From the NCBI GenBank assembly GCA_003562475.1, contig PWUU01000048.1, positions 52,206 to 116,205 of the forward strand: 64,000 nucleotides of DNA, written 5' to 3'. Origin of the DNA: Dehalococcoidia bacterium (GTDB lineage: Bacteria; Chloroflexota; Dehalococcoidia; GIF9; AB-539-J10). The notes beneath the pieces were generated by a model. That model was not told the origin of the DNA. It searched no databases and saw only the letters and a program-made list of their open reading frames with translations. Below, piece by piece: positions 5,038 to 60,743 of the stretch (the stretch's first letter is position 1; each line of letters opens with the position of its first letter). A program made the translations under genes and the position numbers.

Positions 5038-5112
5038 GTGAATGGAATGACTACCGTAGGGACCAAAAAGAAGTGCCCCAGATGTCCTCGCAGCTTGTAC
5101 TCACGCGACCAC
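5038..5112 (+). pseudogene. Truncated small zinc-ribbon protein
   Basis: Downstream of GGAGAG, an in-frame GTG/ATG pair opens MTTVGTKKKCPRCPRSLYSRD. Small zinc ribbons of environmental bacteria share a KKCPRC-x-x-x-L-Y-x-x-RD start followed by a second CxxC. Here the second cysteine pair never appears: the reading runs at once into the 3' end of the small-RNA element at 5113. I infer a gene cut off at that boundary. Very short and uncertain. Confidence 0.3.
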
Positions 5113-5217
5113 CCCCAAGTTCTCCTGTCTTCCTTGTCCCTCAACTTGTGGTCTTGGGAGTCGAATGACACTACCCCTCAGGAATCAAGCCCTTTCTTGC
5201 TGCTCAGTGACCTGGGG
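5113..5217 (-). ncRNA. Structured RNA element, copy D (short, degenerate)
   Basis: Read on the minus strand, it begins GCCCCAGGTCAC, identical over 12 nt to copy C at 60.6 kb. It continues with an AAAGG block and TTCGACTCC, then AAGACCACA-AGTTGAGGGACAAGG, which aligns with copy C over about 40 nt. It closes with CTTGGGG, able to pair with the 5' CCCCAGG (one G-U). It is about 40 nt shorter than the other copies because the segment between the core hairpin and the 3' arm is missing, and no U-run follows. Its promoter geometry is retained. Probably a decayed or truncated family member. Confidence 0.45.
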
Positions 5218-5225
5218 CAAATAGT

Positions 5226-5255
5226 AAGATAGCCTATGGCGATAGGGGCTGTCAA
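5226..5255 (-). promoter_or_regulatory. Sigma-A type promoter of RNA copy D
   Basis: On the minus strand TTGACA (5255-5250), an 18-nt spacer and TATCTT (5231-5226), then 8 nt to the CCCC that starts the element. The 8-nt distance is the same in all four copies. Confidence 0.5.
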
Positions 5256-6581: not shown

Positions 6582-7511
6582 TCAACAGACGCAGACTTCC
6601 AGATCGAAGGACGCCAGCATATCCCTGATCGAGCTGATCTTACTCACACCCTCTTCGTCCGAAGCTAACGCCTTACAGGTGTCCAGGGCATAGCTTCGAG
6701 ACAGACGAAAGTACTTGTCCCTGCCCAACTGGTGGAAGGGCATAAGGTCGACTTCCTTCACACTTCTCAAGCTTGCTACAAACTCGCACGTCTTCCGAAT
6801 GTTGTCCGCATCAAGGTTGAATCCCGGAATCAACGGCAACCTGATCACAATGGGGACTCCGCTCCTGCAGAGCTCTACTGCATTGCTCAAGATCAACTCG
6901 TTGGAAACGCCTGTTCGATCCCTGTGCTTCACAGGATCCATGTGTTTGATATCCAGAAGCACCGAGTCCAGGTAGGGGATCACTCTTTCGAAGCAGTCCC
7001 ACGGAGCGTGTCCACAGGTCTCTAGGACTGCACTGATGTGCGAATCGTAGCTTCGCCTGAGTAGTTCGTGAGCAAACTCAAGTTGATGGAGAGGTTCGCC
7101 ACCGGATAGCGTCAGGCCGCCATCAGATACAGTGTGAAAGCATCTGTCCTTGTCGACCTCTCCCAGGATATCTTCAACTGTGACGACCTTGCCAGCATAA
7201 ACCAGCGCTTCGCTCACGCAGCCTTCTACGCATCTCCCACATTCGTTGCACAGCTTCCTATCGATCTTGAATCCGCTCTCCACTTCCAGATCAGGATTGA
7301 CGGCCTTCGGCCGGCATGCCTCCACACAAGCGCCACATCTAACGCATCGCGAGCGATAGAACTCAATCTCTATGTGCGGGCTCTGGCATTCAGGATTACA
7401 GCACCAGTCGCATACGAGCGGACACCCTTTCAGGAATACAAGTGTTCGTATGCCTGTGCCGTCGTGAAGCGAGTAAGGCTGGATGTGAGTGATGGTTCCG
7501 CGTGTCTTCAT
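6582..7511 (-). CDS. Glycyl-radical enzyme activating protein (radical SAM)
   Basis: Radical SAM activase of the PflA family. The SAM cluster motif is CPLVCDWC (Cx3Cx2C) within KGCPLVCDWCCNPE. Two ferredoxin-type cluster motifs follow (CVRCGACVEACRP and CNECGRCVEGCV), a layout found in activases of non-PFL glycyl-radical enzymes. LTLSGGEPLHQ is the SAM-binding GGE motif. The track begins at a TTG; the ATG at 7511 heads MKTRGTITHIQPYSLHDG, the conserved N-terminus, so I choose it (309 aa). It lies 120 bp downstream of the glycyl-radical enzyme, its evident substrate, on the same strand. Confidence 0.93.
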   Translation of the reverse strand: MKTRGTITHIQPYSLHDGTGIRTLVFLKGCPLVCDWCCNPECQSPHIEIEFYRSRCVRCGACVEACRPKAVNPDLEVESGFKIDRKLCNECGRCVEGCVSEALVYAGKVVTVEDILGEVDKDRCFHTVSDGGLTLSGGEPLHQLEFAHELLRRSYDSHISAVLETCGHAPWDCFERVIPYLDSVLLDIKHMDPVKHRDRTGVSNELILSNAVELCRSGVPIVIRLPLIPGFNLDADNIRKTCEFVASLRSVKEVDLMPFHQLGRDKYFRLSRSYALDTCKALASDEEGVSKISSIRDMLASFDLEVCVC

Positions 7512-7631
7512 CTTGACCTGAACTCCCGCGGACAGTCCCGGAAGACTCAAGGAGTCTTCAATGGCGCAATTTCCGGCAAGCCAAACCCGACAGTGAAGCG
7601 TGAATCCCGCCCGCCCCGAGTCTCCATCAGA

Positions 7632-10205
7632 CTAGAAGTGGTGTTCAGTTCTGCTGATAATGGTGTCCTGAACTTCTTTGTCCAACTCGACAAAGATCGC
7701 ACTATATCCGCCAGTTCTTACCACAAGGTCTTTGTACTCATCCGGATGTTTCTGCGCCTCCTTTAACGCATCAGTGTCCATAACAGTGTACTGGACCGTC
7801 TGTCCCCTCATGAGTACGTAGGCCCTGACCAGGTCAGCCCACTTGCTCAACTCCCTTTCGCCGGACACAGCGGCTGTGGTGAAGCGACAGTTGAACAGTA
7901 TGCCGTTGGTAGCTCTCCAGGTGTCGAGCTTTGCTGCCGACTTATGCAGCCTGGTGGGACCTTCCAGGTCTGCACCCGCTGACGGGTCTATCGCGGAAGA
8001 CAAGGGCTCTCCTATGCCTCTCCCCTCCGGTGTTGCCCAGGTGTCATAACCCATGTACACATAGTTGGTCAGTGAGAAGAACCCGCCAACGAAGTTGCCG
8101 CCATGAGGTGTCCTGTGTCTTTCGTACGCATCCATCCAGGCGTTGGAGAGTCTCACCGCCCACTTGTCAGCATAGTCATCATCGTTGCCATATTTGGGTG
8201 CCTTGCGACATCTTTCCCTGATGTGTTCGTAGCCCACCCAATTGTTGTCCATTGCCTCTACGAGTTCATCCCAGGTGATCTCTTTCCTGTCATAGACCAG
8301 ATACTCGATTGCCGCCAGCGAGTCAGCACCGGTGCTCAACCCCACACCTATTGCCCCGGTCCAGTTGTATTTGCACCCCCCATCCATGTAGTCCACGCCC
8401 TTATGCCTCGGGCCGGGGTGCAGCAGGTCCAGTACCGGCACAGGATGCCAGGTCTTCCATGCCCAGTCCATCAGGTTGTTGTAGATGCAATTCAAGCGCA
8501 CAGTGTGGTCGATTTGTTTCTTGACGGCAGCGAAGAAGTCTTCCATGGTCTTGAAGTCCCCGGGGTTGCCGGTCTCCACTCCGGCCCGGTCTCCACTTTT
8601 CTTCTCTATGCCGTTGTATATTGCCAGGTGCACCAACTTAGCCAGATTGAAGTACCCTGCGTTCGCCCGCGGGTTTGTATCTACGCCACTGGTATTGGGA
8701 TCGGTCGCATTCTCCTGGCAACCGAGGTCAGCGTAGTTTCTGGCCTCAGCAAGAGACACTCCCCGATTCATCAGCGACGGCACAATGGCCTCGTCGTTGA
8801 CTATATGTGGAATGCCGGTACTGAGACGCAGTACCTCAAGGACGGCTTTGAGGATGTCGTTTGGGGTGTTCTTGTGAACCCTGAAGGAGATGCCCGGATC
8901 ATTCAGGTGAACGTGAGCGTGAGCCTCCAGCACCATGTACGACAATTCGTTCGTGGCATCCTGACCATGCTCATCCATGCCGGAAATGGCCATCTTGTCA
9001 TTGGTGCTGAAGCTGGGGACTCTTCTTGCCCTGTGGTATTCCTGCAGGTACTTTCTCTCCCTGATCTTAATGAAGAGACACTCCAGCAGGAATTGTGCCA
9101 ATTGCCTGGAGGTCTTCCCACTCTCCAGGTCTCTCCTGAGGTACGGATACATGTACTGGTCGAACCTGCCGGCAGAATGCGAATCGCCACCATCACACAG
9201 GTGAATCGCATTGTGGAGGAAATGCCAGCACTGCACCGCTTCCCACCAGGAATCAGCGGGATACTCGGGCACCCTGCGGCACACCCGCGACATGTCCTGC
9301 AGTTCTGCCCTCCGCTTCTGACTCGTCTCTCCGGCGGCCATTTCGGCGGCTAAGTCAGCACAGCGATTCGCGTAGATAATGATGGCGTCGGCGGCTATGA
9401 GCATACCCCTGTAGACGTTTAGCCTGTCGAGTTCAGCATGAGATGAAACATCGGAGCCATCAATTCTCTCCATTTCAGCCCGAATCTCTTCTTTGAGCTC
9501 CTTCAGGCCCTTCCTCAGAACAGTCGCGTAGTCAGCGATTGTATGGGACACGCCAAAGCCGATGAGCGGATGGGACATCTTGCCCGGGAAGTGTCCGTTG
9601 TGGAAGCCTACATAGGGGAAATTCTCGTCCAATTGCTTTTGTATGATGGCAGGGTGACAGATATCTCGCCAGTACGGGATGATCTCCTCTTTAAGAGCTT
9701 TGTAGTCGTTTTCATCCACCACCCAGGCTTCAACTCCCCTGACTCTGAGAGCGTCCAGCTCGCTCATGTGCTCGCCAACTTCCTCAACGAACACCGACCT
9801 TTCCAGCCAGGTGCTCATGAACTCCGGCTCGACTTCTGTCCCCAGCAGGTAAGCACTGGGATCACCCATCAAGAGCTGGTATTCATCGCAGATTAGTGGG
9901 ATGAATTGACAGATGTGTTTCAGCCCCTTCGCCTTCCTGATGATTGGGGGCTCGCCTTCAGTCTGCTGATAACTCTCCGTCAGTAGTTTCCCGCGCCAGA
10001 TTGAGAGATAGCCTCTCTTTCCGTCCGGCCTTTCGAGCAGCATTTCCCTCAGCGTCTGAATGCGCTGCTCCTCTTCGTCATCTCCCTTCAGAATCATCCG
10101 GTCAAAGATCGAACCCCGCCACATCTTGCCGTAACTCCTGGAACGTTCCCACCATGGAATGACTCTGTCAGCGTTCTTCTGCTTCGCGCCAACACTGCCG
10201 GCCAT
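7632..10205 (-). CDS. Glycyl-radical enzyme, unassigned subclass (GCQEN active site)
   Basis: 857 aa from an ATG preceded by GAGGGAGG; the track's TTG start adds five residues. The C-terminal glycyl-radical motif VVRTGGYSAIF..QDTIISRTEHHF is intact, with the radical Gly at about residue 833. The catalytic Cys lies in YADLGCQENATDP at about residue 496, and the Glu two residues later matches the C-x-E pair of lyases and decarboxylases (4-hydroxyphenylacetate and indoleacetate decarboxylase, diol dehydratases, CutC) rather than the CC pair of pyruvate formate-lyase. Gln in the x position is unusual to me. No small decarboxylase subunit, microcompartment or aldehyde dehydrogenase gene lies near, so the substrate cannot be inferred. 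Confidence 0.92.
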   Translation of the reverse strand: MAGSVGAKQKNADRVIPWWERSRSYGKMWRGSIFDRMILKGDDEEEQRIQTLREMLLERPDGKRGYLSIWRGKLLTESYQQTEGEPPIIRKAKGLKHICQFIPLICDEYQLLMGDPSAYLLGTEVEPEFMSTWLERSVFVEEVGEHMSELDALRVRGVEAWVVDENDYKALKEEIIPYWRDICHPAIIQKQLDENFPYVGFHNGHFPGKMSHPLIGFGVSHTIADYATVLRKGLKELKEEIRAEMERIDGSDVSSHAELDRLNVYRGMLIAADAIIIYANRCADLAAEMAAGETSQKRRAELQDMSRVCRRVPEYPADSWWEAVQCWHFLHNAIHLCDGGDSHSAGRFDQYMYPYLRRDLESGKTSRQLAQFLLECLFIKIRERKYLQEYHRARRVPSFSTNDKMAISGMDEHGQDATNELSYMVLEAHAHVHLNDPGISFRVHKNTPNDILKAVLEVLRLSTGIPHIVNDEAIVPSLMNRGVSLAEARNYADLGCQENATDPNTSGVDTNPRANAGYFNLAKLVHLAIYNGIEKKSGDRAGVETGNPGDFKTMEDFFAAVKKQIDHTVRLNCIYNNLMDWAWKTWHPVPVLDLLHPGPRHKGVDYMDGGCKYNWTGAIGVGLSTGADSLAAIEYLVYDRKEITWDELVEAMDNNWVGYEHIRERCRKAPKYGNDDDYADKWAVRLSNAWMDAYERHRTPHGGNFVGGFFSLTNYVYMGYDTWATPEGRGIGEPLSSAIDPSAGADLEGPTRLHKSAAKLDTWRATNGILFNCRFTTAAVSGERELSKWADLVRAYVLMRGQTVQYTVMDTDALKEAQKHPDEYKDLVVRTGGYSAIFVELDKEVQDTIISRTEHHF

Positions 10206-10248
10206 GCGGACCTCCCTCAATACTGCTCATCACAGTTGACGTGTGGCT

Positions 10249-32673: not shown

Positions 32674-32870
32674 CAGCCAGCCATCCGACCCATCGCGCAT
32701 CGCCTGTCCTCACCACACAAAATATGCCATGCGGGAGATGTCAGACTACGGCAGGCTATCAAATTCGATACGCACACAATGCCGGAGAATCCGACATTGA
32801 ATCGCGACCAATTGAATAACCAACCACCGTATTTCACCGTTATACACTGAGAGAGTGAGAGAGGAGCCGC
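32674..32870. other. Gap with no recognisable gene
   Basis: About 200 bp, more AT-rich than its surroundings, between larE and the protease gene. No tRNA or strong terminator seen; a promoter for the downstream operon is likely but I cannot place it securely. Confidence 0.35.
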
Positions 32871-33704
32871 ATGATCGTCGACCAGTCGCTCAGCTTCTTT
32901 GTCAACTGGTTCGCAAACCCCAGTTTCCTCGCAATGGGACTGGCCATTCTCTTAGGCCTGTTCTGGTACGCGCTCTATCTGCCGCCACTGCGCGGCTACA
33001 GCTTCCTCTGGGCCGTGGCCGTAGCGTCCGCACTACTCACCCTGCTGGCGATCGTCATCATCCAGATGCCACTCCAGGCACTCGCTGGCATGCTCCTGGG
33101 ACGAGCCTTCGAGCCAACCACGATCGCCAGGTGGCTCTACATCCTCGGGCTGCCCCAAATACTCCTCAGCGGATTCGTCCAAGAGGCTGCCAAGCTGGTA
33201 CCCATCATCTACATCTGGCACCGGGCCGAGCGTTATCTTGACGCGAAGGTCGGCCTGATAGTCGGCGCTACCGCAGGCCTGGGATTTGGGATCTTCGAGG
33301 CGATGTGGGGATTGAACCAGGTGTTTGCCGCCGGCTGGACATGGTCGACGGTCGAGGCTGCCGGGTTCTCCGGGCTGATACCTGTCTGGGAGCGGTTCTT
33401 TGTTATCGGTGGCCATGTAGCCTTCTCAGCGCTCGCGGGTTATGGCCTCGCACGGGAGAGAGGGAGGATCTTCTACCTCATCGCTGCGGGCTTGCACAGC
33501 CTGATGAACTACACCATCGTGCTGCTTCACGCAGAGCTTATCTCGATCACCACGGTTGAGATACTCGTCGCCCTGATAGCCGTGGGGGCCTCTGCCTGGA
33601 TCCTCTATCTCCGCCATGCGGGAGAGAGGGCGCCATGGGCCGGCGGCGGCTACCGCAAGCGACTGCACCTCGGCAAGGAGCCGAAGGAATACGTGAATAA
33701 GTAG
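32871..33704 (+). CDS. PrsW/YhfC-like intramembrane protease family protein
   Basis: 277 aa with seven to eight predicted membrane helices. FVQEAAKLVPIIYIW (E-x3-K), FGIFEAMWGLNQ, GGHVAFSALAGYGLA and AAGLHSLMNYTIVL carry the conserved Glu and His residues of the CPBP/PrsW/YhfC glutamic intramembrane protease group. The C-terminus is basic and cytosolic. It heads a rightward run with trmO, a methyltransferase and DUF6512. Natural target unknown. Confidence 0.78.
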   Translation: MIVDQSLSFFVNWFANPSFLAMGLAILLGLFWYALYLPPLRGYSFLWAVAVASALLTLLAIVIIQMPLQALAGMLLGRAFEPTTIARWLYILGLPQILLSGFVQEAAKLVPIIYIWHRAERYLDAKVGLIVGATAGLGFGIFEAMWGLNQVFAAGWTWSTVEAAGFSGLIPVWERFFVIGGHVAFSALAGYGLARERGRIFYLIAAGLHSLMNYTIVLLHAELISITTVEILVALIAVGASAWILYLRHAGERAPWAGGGYRKRLHLGKEPKEYVNK

Positions 33705-35519: not shown

Positions 35520-37256
35520 CTAGGTGGACGTGCGAAGCCACTCGCCGAGGGGCCAGACCTGAGGTTTGATGCCCTTGGTCGAGGCGAACTCCAGCACATC
35601 ATTGTCAGCGATAAGCCGCACTATGCCGGGCTCAACCTTCAGCGCAATCTGGACTTCCGGCCGCCTCTCCAGGAGTATGTTGGCCAGCAGTATCGCCTTC
35701 TCGACGCCATCGCCACGGCCATAGTTCCATACCTCGTCCGGCTGAGCCAGCCGACCTTCCTCATCATAAATCGATTGGTCCGGCATCTCCGAGACCAACC
35801 CGATAACCTCCGCATACGATAGGTCGCGCATCTCCTCAAGCGATACCGGATTCCGCTCGAGTGCTGCGACGAGAAACGGCCAGGGATCGGTTCGATTGAG
35901 GTCACGATAAGAATAGAATGCGAGGTCCACTACTGGATGGCGAGATCTCAATTCCTCGAGTCGATTGAGCAGTTGCTCTCGACTCATGTCGGGCCGTAGG
36001 CCAAGAGGCTCTCCTTCTTTGACGAACCTCTTCTCTGCGGGATCAGGGAGACGCGGGTCTACGTGACAGAAGGCGGCCAGTGCATCGATAGCAATTCCCG
36101 CGCGCTCGCAACCCTGCCCGAGGACATCCTTCAAACGCTGCCGATCCTCGGGCTTATCGCAGTCTATCTGACTCTCCCGAATGAAGACCTCAAAATCGTT
36201 CAGCACCAGCCTTTCGGGTAATGGTGCTGTCTGATACTCCTCTTCATCGATGTCGTCAAGGAGCTTCGCACGGGTCGAGTCATTCAGCCTGAAGGGACTC
36301 CCATGCTCATACGAGAAGGCACGCTCGGCAGCAATATAGTGGTCGGTTCCATGAACCGGCCAGCGTACCTGGAAGCAGCTCTGTGTCTCCCTGTGGTGTC
36401 GCAGGAAATTGACCAGTATCTCCTCGGTAATCGGGGTCTTCAGAAAGGCGCGAATCCGCTCAGAGAACCGCCTGTACGCGCCAGGGTCTATCGTTGCCTC
36501 CTCATGCACAGCGTGGATGTAGCCTGTATCATGTGCGACGATGGTCACGCGCTCATTCTCCAGAGCGCGGCGCGCCTGAGCAGACAGCGCCGTGCCGTTG
36601 AACCACATTGCCTTTGTCAGAAGCCGGCGGTTGTTCGTGAGGATGCCCTCACCGATATCGATATAGTTCTGGGAATGCAGGGGCGTAGCCATCAGGTAGA
36701 TGTCCTCCAGAGGGATACGAGCCACGATGAAAAGCGCCGCCGCGTACAAGGCCGCGAGAGATACACACTCACCAGCACCACTGGCATACGCCGGTTTGAA
36801 CTCGAAGGCATCCATTGCTTCGACAGTCTCCGTCTTCCAGTACGGAATCACATTCCCTTCGTACTTATCCAAGCCGAAATGGGTGCGTATGTCGATGCTG
36901 AAGTAGTACTTATCCCCTTCGTAGCCAAAGAGCGCATTTGACTGGGCCAGAGTATCCTCGTCGATGAAATCGCGAAAGCGCTCCAGTTCCTTGTCTTTCG
37001 TCGTCAATCCCCACGTATCCAGGTCGAGATTGAAGACGTAGTGATCCATGATGAACTGCTTGAGTCTATTGATACGCCGGTAGGGTTTTGCTCTCTCTAT
37101 CCTGTCGAACCAGGGATCCTCGCGCCAGCGCCAGATACGCGGAGACATCAGGTTCGCAAGGAGGAGGCTGTACATGAGTTGAGGGAATATGAACACCTCC
37201 ATATCCGACAGCGTAACTGCAGATGACCGTAGTTCCAGTTCTCTTGACCGCGCCAT
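35520..37256 (-). CDS. Large uncharacterised protein with transglutaminase-like core
   Basis: 578 aa from ATG 37256 (GGAGAG upstream; the track's extra ten residues are unlikely). Residues about 155-200 read GAGECVSLAALYAAALFIV..ATPLHSQNYIDIG: a Cys at the start of a helix, a His about 35 residues later and an Asp four residues beyond, the catalytic order of transglutaminase-like cysteine peptidases. The rest has no motif I know. No signal peptide, so cytoplasmic. RNA copy A lies about 210 nt upstream on the same strand, ending in a U-run before this gene. Monocistronic. Confidence 0.72.
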   Translation of the reverse strand: MARSRELELRSSAVTLSDMEVFIFPQLMYSLLLANLMSPRIWRWREDPWFDRIERAKPYRRINRLKQFIMDHYVFNLDLDTWGLTTKDKELERFRDFIDEDTLAQSNALFGYEGDKYYFSIDIRTHFGLDKYEGNVIPYWKTETVEAMDAFEFKPAYASGAGECVSLAALYAAALFIVARIPLEDIYLMATPLHSQNYIDIGEGILTNNRRLLTKAMWFNGTALSAQARRALENERVTIVAHDTGYIHAVHEEATIDPGAYRRFSERIRAFLKTPITEEILVNFLRHHRETQSCFQVRWPVHGTDHYIAAERAFSYEHGSPFRLNDSTRAKLLDDIDEEEYQTAPLPERLVLNDFEVFIRESQIDCDKPEDRQRLKDVLGQGCERAGIAIDALAAFCHVDPRLPDPAEKRFVKEGEPLGLRPDMSREQLLNRLEELRSRHPVVDLAFYSYRDLNRTDPWPFLVAALERNPVSLEEMRDLSYAEVIGLVSEMPDQSIYDEEGRLAQPDEVWNYGRGDGVEKAILLANILLERRPEVQIALKVEPGIVRLIADNDVLEFASTKGIKPQVWPLGEWLRTST

Positions 37257-37464
37257 ACACTCTCCGTATCGAAGTTGCCGTGCCACACGAGACTATATGT
37301 GGCAGCGCGCGGCACGTCAACCAGGCTTGCGATCGCTCACCGGCCCCGCAGTCCCCGGCCGGTTCAGCGCATTGCCAGCCACGCGGGTTAGATTGCCAGC
37401 TGCGCGTCAGCGAGAAGCAACTCAGACGGGCCGGAACACACGAGACACCATGAGGCGAGGGCAG

Positions 37465-37622
37465 AAAAAGACCCCAAGTGGCCTCACTTTCCTCGGGATC
37501 TCGGCTTGGTTACCTCAGGCTTCAGGCCTTTCCTAATCCCTCGACGTGGAAGTCTCGGGACTCCTCACAGCCACCACCGTCCGGGTATCCAGCCCCTCTA
37601 TCCCTTGCGCGGTCACTTGGGG
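37465..37622 (-). ncRNA. Structured RNA element, copy A
   Basis: On the minus strand the RNA would start at CCCCAAGTG (37622-37614), which pairs perfectly over 9 bp with CACTTGGGG (37480-37472). TCTTTTT follows directly. A block GGCTGGATACCCGG near the 5' side matches copy C (GGCCAGACAACCCGG) and copy B (GGCCAAGGACCCGG). The core GAGTCCCGAGACTTCCACGT matches copy C at 17 of 20 positions, and GTGAGGCCACTTGGGG matches the 3' ends of B and C. TCCC/GGGA flanking the core loop becomes GTCC/GGAC in C, a compensatory change. No ORF with support overlaps it. Confidence 0.6.
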
Positions 37623-37630
37623 CGCCCTGA

Positions 37631-37659
37631 ACGTTAGCAGCGGAGAGCAGACCTGTCAA
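37631..37659 (-). promoter_or_regulatory. Sigma-A type promoter of RNA copy A
   Basis: On the minus strand TTGACA (37659-37654), 17 nt, TAACGT (37636-37631), then 8 nt to the CCCC start. Same geometry as copies B and C. Confidence 0.6.
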
Positions 37660-41852: not shown

Positions 41853-41998
41853 AAAACCCCAAGCGACCTTACTGTCGGGTTGGGGCCTCTCCCTGCAGGC
41901 TTCCGCCGCCCCTGGCCTCGCTCCATACATGCAACGAAACCATCTCGGCTGTTCTCTGCCGGGTCCTTGGCCTTTCCCCTGAGCTCGATTGCTTGGGG
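41853..41998 (-). ncRNA. Structured RNA element, copy B
   Basis: On the minus strand CCCCAAGC at the 5' end pairs with GCTTGGGG at the 3' end (9 bp counting the flanking A-U), followed by TTTTC. Blocks shared with the other copies are GGCCAAGGACCCGG, the CGTTG..ATG..GAGCGAGG core (compare CGTTGATGGACAACGAGG in C), GAAGCCTG (with A) and GTAAGGTCGCTTGGGG. The last, plus TTTTCTATTATCC, aligns with the end of C (TTTTCTGTTGTCC). It lies between convergent genes, so it is not a leader of either. Confidence 0.6.
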
Positions 41999-42006
41999 TA
42001 TCTTTT

Positions 42007-42035
42007 ACCTTACCGGACACTAACCTTCATGTCAA
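42007..42035 (-). promoter_or_regulatory. Sigma-A type promoter of RNA copy B
   Basis: On the minus strand TTGACA (42035-42030), 17 nt, TAAGGT (42012-42007), then 8 nt to the CCCC start. Confidence 0.6.
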
Positions 42036-60558: not shown

Positions 60559-60587
60559 TTGACAGATCCATCATGGTCTGGCACGTT
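60559..60587 (+). promoter_or_regulatory. Sigma-A type promoter of RNA copy C
   Basis: TTGACA (60559-60564), 17 nt, then the -10 position CACGTT (60582-60587; the overlapping ACGTTA is no better), then 8 nt to CCCC. The -35 is perfect and its distance to the RNA start (32 nt) equals that in copies A and B; the -10 is weak. Confidence 0.45.
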
Positions 60588-60595
60588 AGGAGTTG

Positions 60596-60743
60596 CCCCA
60601 GGTCACCAGGCGGTCATAAAAGGCCAGACAACCCGGGGAGGGACGGTCTTTCGAGTCCTGAGACCTACACGTTGATGGACAACGAGGACAAGAGCACCCG
60701 GGGGACTGCGTCATAATGAGGCTGTGAGGTTGCCTGGGGTTTT
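60596..60743 (+). ncRNA. Structured RNA element, copy C
   Basis: CCCCAGG (60596-60602) pairs with CCTGGGG (60733-60739), followed by TTTTC. The core GAGTCCTGAGACCTACACGT is shared with copy A, and the longer stretch to GGACAACGAGGAC with copy D. CGTTG-ATGGA-CAACG can form a hairpin within it. The 3' end GTGAGGTTGCCTGGGGTTTTCTGTTGTCC parallels copy B. It is the only plus-strand copy and lies about 290 nt upstream of the molybdopterin gene. Confidence 0.6.

Follow-up and report, generated by a model that had tools for sequence, protein, structure and literature searches.

The window analysed here, a stretch of 64,000 nucleotides from a Dehalococcoidia draft genome, contains four intergenic elements (copies A to D; Table 1). 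On direct reading, all four contain the order of parts described in an earlier sequence-only reading of this DNA, namely a TTGACA box, a −10 hexamer, a C-rich start and, farther on, a complementary closing segment. The pattern TTGACA-N23..31-CCCCA-N112..142-TGGGG has exact matches in the window at copies A, B and C, and none in 100 dinucleotide shuffles of it. A family model limited to terminal-stem pairs (R2), built from 57 sequences among which are the window copies themselves, has four matches in the window, namely A, B, C and D, and no others. The elements lie where they were first placed, but copy D had been cut short at its 3′ end: it closes with CTGGGGCA, the last base of which is 5074, and CTTGGGGG near 5113 is internal. 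The internal blocks described as recurring (GAGTCCYGAGACYTMCACGT and others) are likewise common to A and C, less exact in D, and absent from B. The weak −10 hexamer of copy C lies 17 nt past TTGACA. No long open frame occurs inside the elements, in agreement with their initial description as non-coding.

Table 1 Positions of the four elements and their parts in the window
Feature	Position	Strand	Details
Copy A structured RNA core	37470..37624	−	155 nt; R2 107.5 bits
Copy A promoter	37631..37659	−	TTGACA 37659-37654, TAACGT 37636-37631; read directly, with family promoter statistics
Copy A terminator U-run	37465..37471	−	T-rich run right behind closing stem; terminal stem is the hairpin
Copy B structured RNA core	41855..42000	−	146 nt; R2 85.7 bits
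Copy B promoter	42007..42035	−	TTGACA 42035-42030, TAAGGT 42012-42007; read directly
Copy C structured RNA core	60594..60741	+	148 nt; R2 90.9 bits
Copy C promoter	60559..60587	+	TTGACA 60559-60564, weak −10 CACGTT 60582-60587; read directly
Copy D structured RNA core	5074..5219	−	146 nt; R2 87.2 bits; 3′ end moved from 5113
Copy D promoter	5226..5255	−	TTGACA 5255-5250, TATCTT 5231-5226; read directly

Just downstream of copy A and on the same strand, the window encodes a 588-aa protein with no Pfam match (35520-37286, −), which occupies the same place in five congeneric genomes, where orthologs of copy A precede it. A pyruvate formate-lyase-like glycyl radical enzyme and a radical-SAM gene are encoded close to copy D (6582-10220, −).

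Structure and transcription signals

An alignment of ten copies, comprising the four in the window and six recovered by DNA similarity from the same genus and contig, yields a single rod. Across the whole rod, 19 of 39 pairs show double changes compared with 6.3 in column shuffles, and this signal is mostly lost once partners are slid by one base. For the terminal stem, the 57 sequences contain 54 double-change cells (20.6 in shuffles) with 94.3% of cells paired, against 22–46% when slid, and 40 divergent sequences contain 83 double-change cells (28.6 in shuffles); the shuffle controls behind these counts leave sequence relatedness in place, and the structures derive partly from the same sequences. 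Folding of single copies gave z-scores relative to shuffles of −2.9 (A), −4.6 (B) and −2.7 (C), with a minimum free energy of −68 kcal/mol for the rod of copy A, while copy D folds barely better than its shuffles (z −1.5). The case for structure is built on covariation and homology, without reliance on folding energy.

All four window elements are rod-shaped, with a covarying terminal stem of 13 bp that is followed by a 2-by-2 purine mismatch and then two pairs; each has a sigma-70-type promoter 5–8 nt ahead of the stem and a U-run behind it. This stem is near-invariant (UGYCCCAAGUAAYCRAGC...GYGAGGUUACUUGGGGCR), several of its positions being 98–100% conserved among 123 copies. Matches in other genera have both ends in common with a rod between them; the whole RNA ranges from 77 to 184 nt, and an unbranched rod is predicted for 107 of 119 RNAs. 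Outside the window's genus, RGUA opposite GAA recurs beside a short stem capped by a GNRA-like loop. Such RGUA/GAA internal-loop modules, which we take to resemble bulged-G (loop E) modules, occur in 44 of the 119 RNAs compared with 12 in shuffles. Just 4 of 34 copies from the window's genus contain the module, which therefore cannot be the whole function there.

Because the promoter was left out of all models, the signal upstream of the RNA is independent of the search. An exact TTGACA is present upstream of 111 of 141 distinct copies, and the promoter score averages 9.4 of 12, relative to 6.7 at random positions of the same DNA. In these 141 copies, the spacer between TTGACA and a −10-like hexamer is mostly 16–18 nt, the −10 mostly ends 5–8 nt ahead of the stem or core, and the first 10 nt past the stem include 6.5 T on average; members of the family thus nearly always have both a promoter and a terminator in sequence. 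From these signals we infer a stand-alone gene that is read from a sigma-70-type promoter of its own. Comparison across copies upholds the original proposal of stand-alone RNA genes with a conserved fold, predicted from covariation above both shuffled and slid controls, and speaks equally for its dismissal of a leader.

Distribution, paralogs and the hpt locus

The covariance-model search proposed in the sequence-only reading returned more copies in the same genome, in related genomes and in the phylum. The draft genome itself holds eight or nine copies, with nine matches to model R1, five of them on the window's contig (C57), and each of the seven genomes sampled from the genus has 2–8 R1 matches. 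Model R2 matches 60 of 393 genomes of the class Dehalococcoidia, among them 27 of the 29 examined in the family and 16 of the 20 order-mates, along with members of scattered families in the class, while R3 matches 45 of 400 genomes of the phylum Chloroflexota. Both R2 and R3 also match other families of the phylum beyond the class. Outside the family, most carriers hold a single copy. Two pattern matches sit in records titled Dehalococcoidia; the core pattern also occurs in a record titled as a Gammaproteobacteria MAG (L048, JAUIAI010000130.1:2837-2859; coverage 0.85), which is probably a misbinned Dehalococcoidia contig.

Searches against Rfam 15 at the gathering threshold gave no match in the window and none at the tested copies elsewhere, and relaxed thresholds gave nothing at the elements, as expected from the earlier statement that this is not a named family. 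Few stand-alone regulatory RNAs have been described for Chloroflexota, and no description of one of the present kind was found in the literature searched, which included few subscription papers. The rdhA motif of Dehalococcoides, a structured RNA candidate of the same class, is unlike the present RNA in being a riboswitch-type candidate upstream of reductive dehalogenase genes; its main text makes no mention of an hpt or phosphoribosyltransferase association (PMC11109978). As judged by these comparisons, a previously unnamed family of putative small structured RNAs, without an Rfam entry, is recurrent across Chloroflexota, and its members almost certainly represent a real small-RNA gene family.

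In the tree, an A-type paralog line is present in six genomes of the genus and a B-type line in all seven (7/7); further lines consist of a C/D group, a 77–79-nt type and one more. Copy D groups with loci L052 and L054, and copy C has a DNA match of 84% identity in genome G001. The A and B lines retain the same neighbouring genes from species to species. Since the paralog lines are kept between species, the occurrence of four copies in 64 kb reflects a local set of old paralogs.

Two unusual arrangements were also observed. In G003, three tandem A-like RNA genes lie about 400 nt apart, each with a promoter (C18:3192-4139; L059:2193-3140). G055 contains a pair of RNA copies, identical also in their promoters, that lie in opposite orientation 18 kb apart (C20:14498-14636 and 32771-32909), the result either of recent duplication or of the assembly.

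An hpt-type gene for a purine-salvage enzyme (GAF plus phosphoribosyltransferase) adjoins the RNA at 57 of 139 loci, usually in convergent orientation and often 2–20 nt away. Comparison of flanking proteins identified one large cluster, whose 42 members represent this gene on the opposite strand after the RNA, followed by a ribonucleotide reductase cluster of 18. The same neighbour is also seen at loci outside the class, and in G130, a genome of the class that consists of one 1.36-Mb contig, a weak 184-nt match lies at the hpt site (24.5 bits). In the window's genus the hpt site gave no RNA match, whether searched with filters off (four genomes) or at default filters (the others). With the hpt-type gene so often alongside (57 of 139 loci), the ancestral form seems to be one gene passed down vertically, which is also the simplest reading. 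In the window's genus, it looks as if the hpt-site copy was lost and the RNA multiplied elsewhere. The four window copies are, on this comparison, paralogs of an apparently ancient gene that elsewhere is single-copy beside hpt.

The hpt-type neighbour protein is itself unusual, with an unassigned middle segment between the GAF and phosphoribosyltransferase parts (L100 and other hpt loci), and its gene is followed in the window's genus by a second, tandem phosphoribosyltransferase gene (G000 C80:26031-27934). At another locus, a molybdenum/tungsten cofactor riboswitch (RF01055, 70.7 bits) lies about 2 kb away from a copy of the RNA (L101:911-1029, −).

Possible roles of the RNA

We favour, with moderate confidence, a combined reading in which these genes constitute a new Chloroflexota small-RNA family whose products act as a protein-bound ribonucleoprotein regulator or decoy; the regulator or decoy mechanism, taken by itself, is a tentative proposal. 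The ancestral state would be one gene of about 110–120 nt, convergent with the hpt-type gene, with a sigma-70-type promoter of its own and with the terminal stem and U-run as its terminator. The window's genus would have lost the hpt-site copy, with lines A, B, C/D and others persisting elsewhere. The terminal stem, in which both pairing and sequence are conserved, would serve as the handle for one common protein partner, as a helix conserved beyond the needs of pairing suggests that a protein reads it. Arms of variable length, often with RGUA/GAA modules outside the genus, would add binding sites, and the RNA would work within a ribonucleoprotein, as regulator or decoy, rather than by mRNA base-pairing, with the paralogs tuning this action. 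Such a ribonucleoprotein is favoured because variable arms with purine-rich structured loops seem better suited to binding protein than to pairing with mRNA.

A gene that has stayed at one site throughout a class, and that adjoins the same gene in further families of the phylum, probably has a basic role. Since almost none of the searched genomes has a canonical 6S RNA, the present RNA is an obvious candidate for a global regulator of transcription or translation. A more far-reaching version, in which it would be a phylum-wide Chloroflexota regulator in place of 6S, or an equivalent novel global ribonucleoprotein, whose modular arm can expand and whose paralog sets differ by lineage, is held with low confidence. 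The covariance models would allow the gene to be found in a culturable member.

Several known RNAs share parts of this design. Y RNAs of Ro ribonucleoproteins combine a conserved terminal stem, which is the protein handle, with a variable loop region. The present RNA has the same layout but differs in its protein context, and a Y RNA identity was rejected, Ro (TROVE) protein being found in none of 61 relatives with a positive control. The repeated modules outside the window's genus, some with GGA, would fit a multivalent decoy of the CsrB/RsmZ type, but they are internal loops, in contrast to the hairpin loops of Csr decoys; this identity was also rejected, with CsrA in none of the 61 relatives and controls positive. 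SRP RNA is similarly a small rod with purine-rich internal loops. It was rejected in turn, as the tested element loci gave no RF00169 match and a separate SRP RNA is encoded elsewhere in order-mates carrying the present RNA (G008, G010, G025 and G027-G030). RF00169 itself matched none of the seven genomes of the window's genus (G000-G006), compared with 8 of 10 other order-mates tested; the genus may have a diverged SRP RNA or one of a different type.

The foremost rival is that the RNA is a Chloroflexota counterpart of 6S RNA (RF00013), highly diverged or convergent, which would bind the RNA polymerase holoenzyme like an open promoter. We consider this unlikely, and retain it as a rival because canonical 6S is so rarely found, with RF00013 matching 1 of 100 relatives compared with 5 of 14 controls. 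The two RNAs share a stand-alone, broadly inherited gene with a strong sigma-70-type promoter of its own, a rod-like form and a closing stem formed by the ends, and most carriers beyond the family are single-copy; the position beside a purine gene presumably recalls 6S neighbourhoods as well. The conservation of the present RNA is however the reverse of that in 6S, with a near-invariant terminal stem and a variable middle where the 6S bubble would lie. Forms of 77–118 nt are short for 6S, some genera are multicopy with up to eight or nine copies per genome, and no RF00013 match was obtained at any tested copy, including at relaxed E-values in the window region and 22 further loci. The doubts about 6S voiced from the sequence are therefore shared here, on the missing match and the many copies. 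The largest internal loop is usually 4–7 nt per strand, but the bubble predicted for the genuine 6S control is small as well, and bubble size did not tell the two kinds of RNA apart. The sole canonical 6S among the 100 relatives (G090 C227:21772-21948; L080) is in a draft genome with 9% contamination that also holds two copies of the present RNA, a co-occurrence that counts against the 6S-like reading. By description, the RNA can also be likened to Ms1 of mycobacteria, in another phylum, which PMC4191392 describes as a stationary-phase sRNA that binds RNA polymerase core free of the primary sigma factor.

Trans-acting antisense sRNAs, whose paralogs would pair with different mRNA targets, are improbable. 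Families of sRNA genes typically have several paralogs that diverge in the middle and have a terminator-like stem in common, but in the predicted fold few long stretches stay single-stranded, the loops are purine-rich and mostly short, and no conserved unpaired seed is visible in the alignments.

It is highly improbable that the element is a non-autonomous repeat, mobile or palindromic (REP or MITE-like), that carries a promoter by chance. The dispersed copies in the window's genus, the tandem triplet in G003 and the identical inverted pair in G055 are features that such a repeat could produce. Against it, the site is conserved over class distance in many carriers, paralogs have diverged yet are retained between species, and hpt and its neighbours form the only large flank clusters. 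A shared mobile-element-like flank was not found at most copies, phage and plasmid collections gave no match, and among viral contigs the strict pattern had no match and the loose pattern no model match among the 80 matches listed. The search for further copies thus uncovered additional covarying members of the family, and neither a transposon nor a coding repeat of the kind that the sequence-only reading had named as grounds for abandoning it.

The least probable of the alternatives, a mere bidirectional terminator between convergent genes with no transcript of its own, would account for an element that adjoins the 3′ end of the convergent gene at the hpt site and ends in a strong hairpin, but nearly all copies retain an upstream promoter with fixed spacing, many lie at other sites, and the middle covaries.
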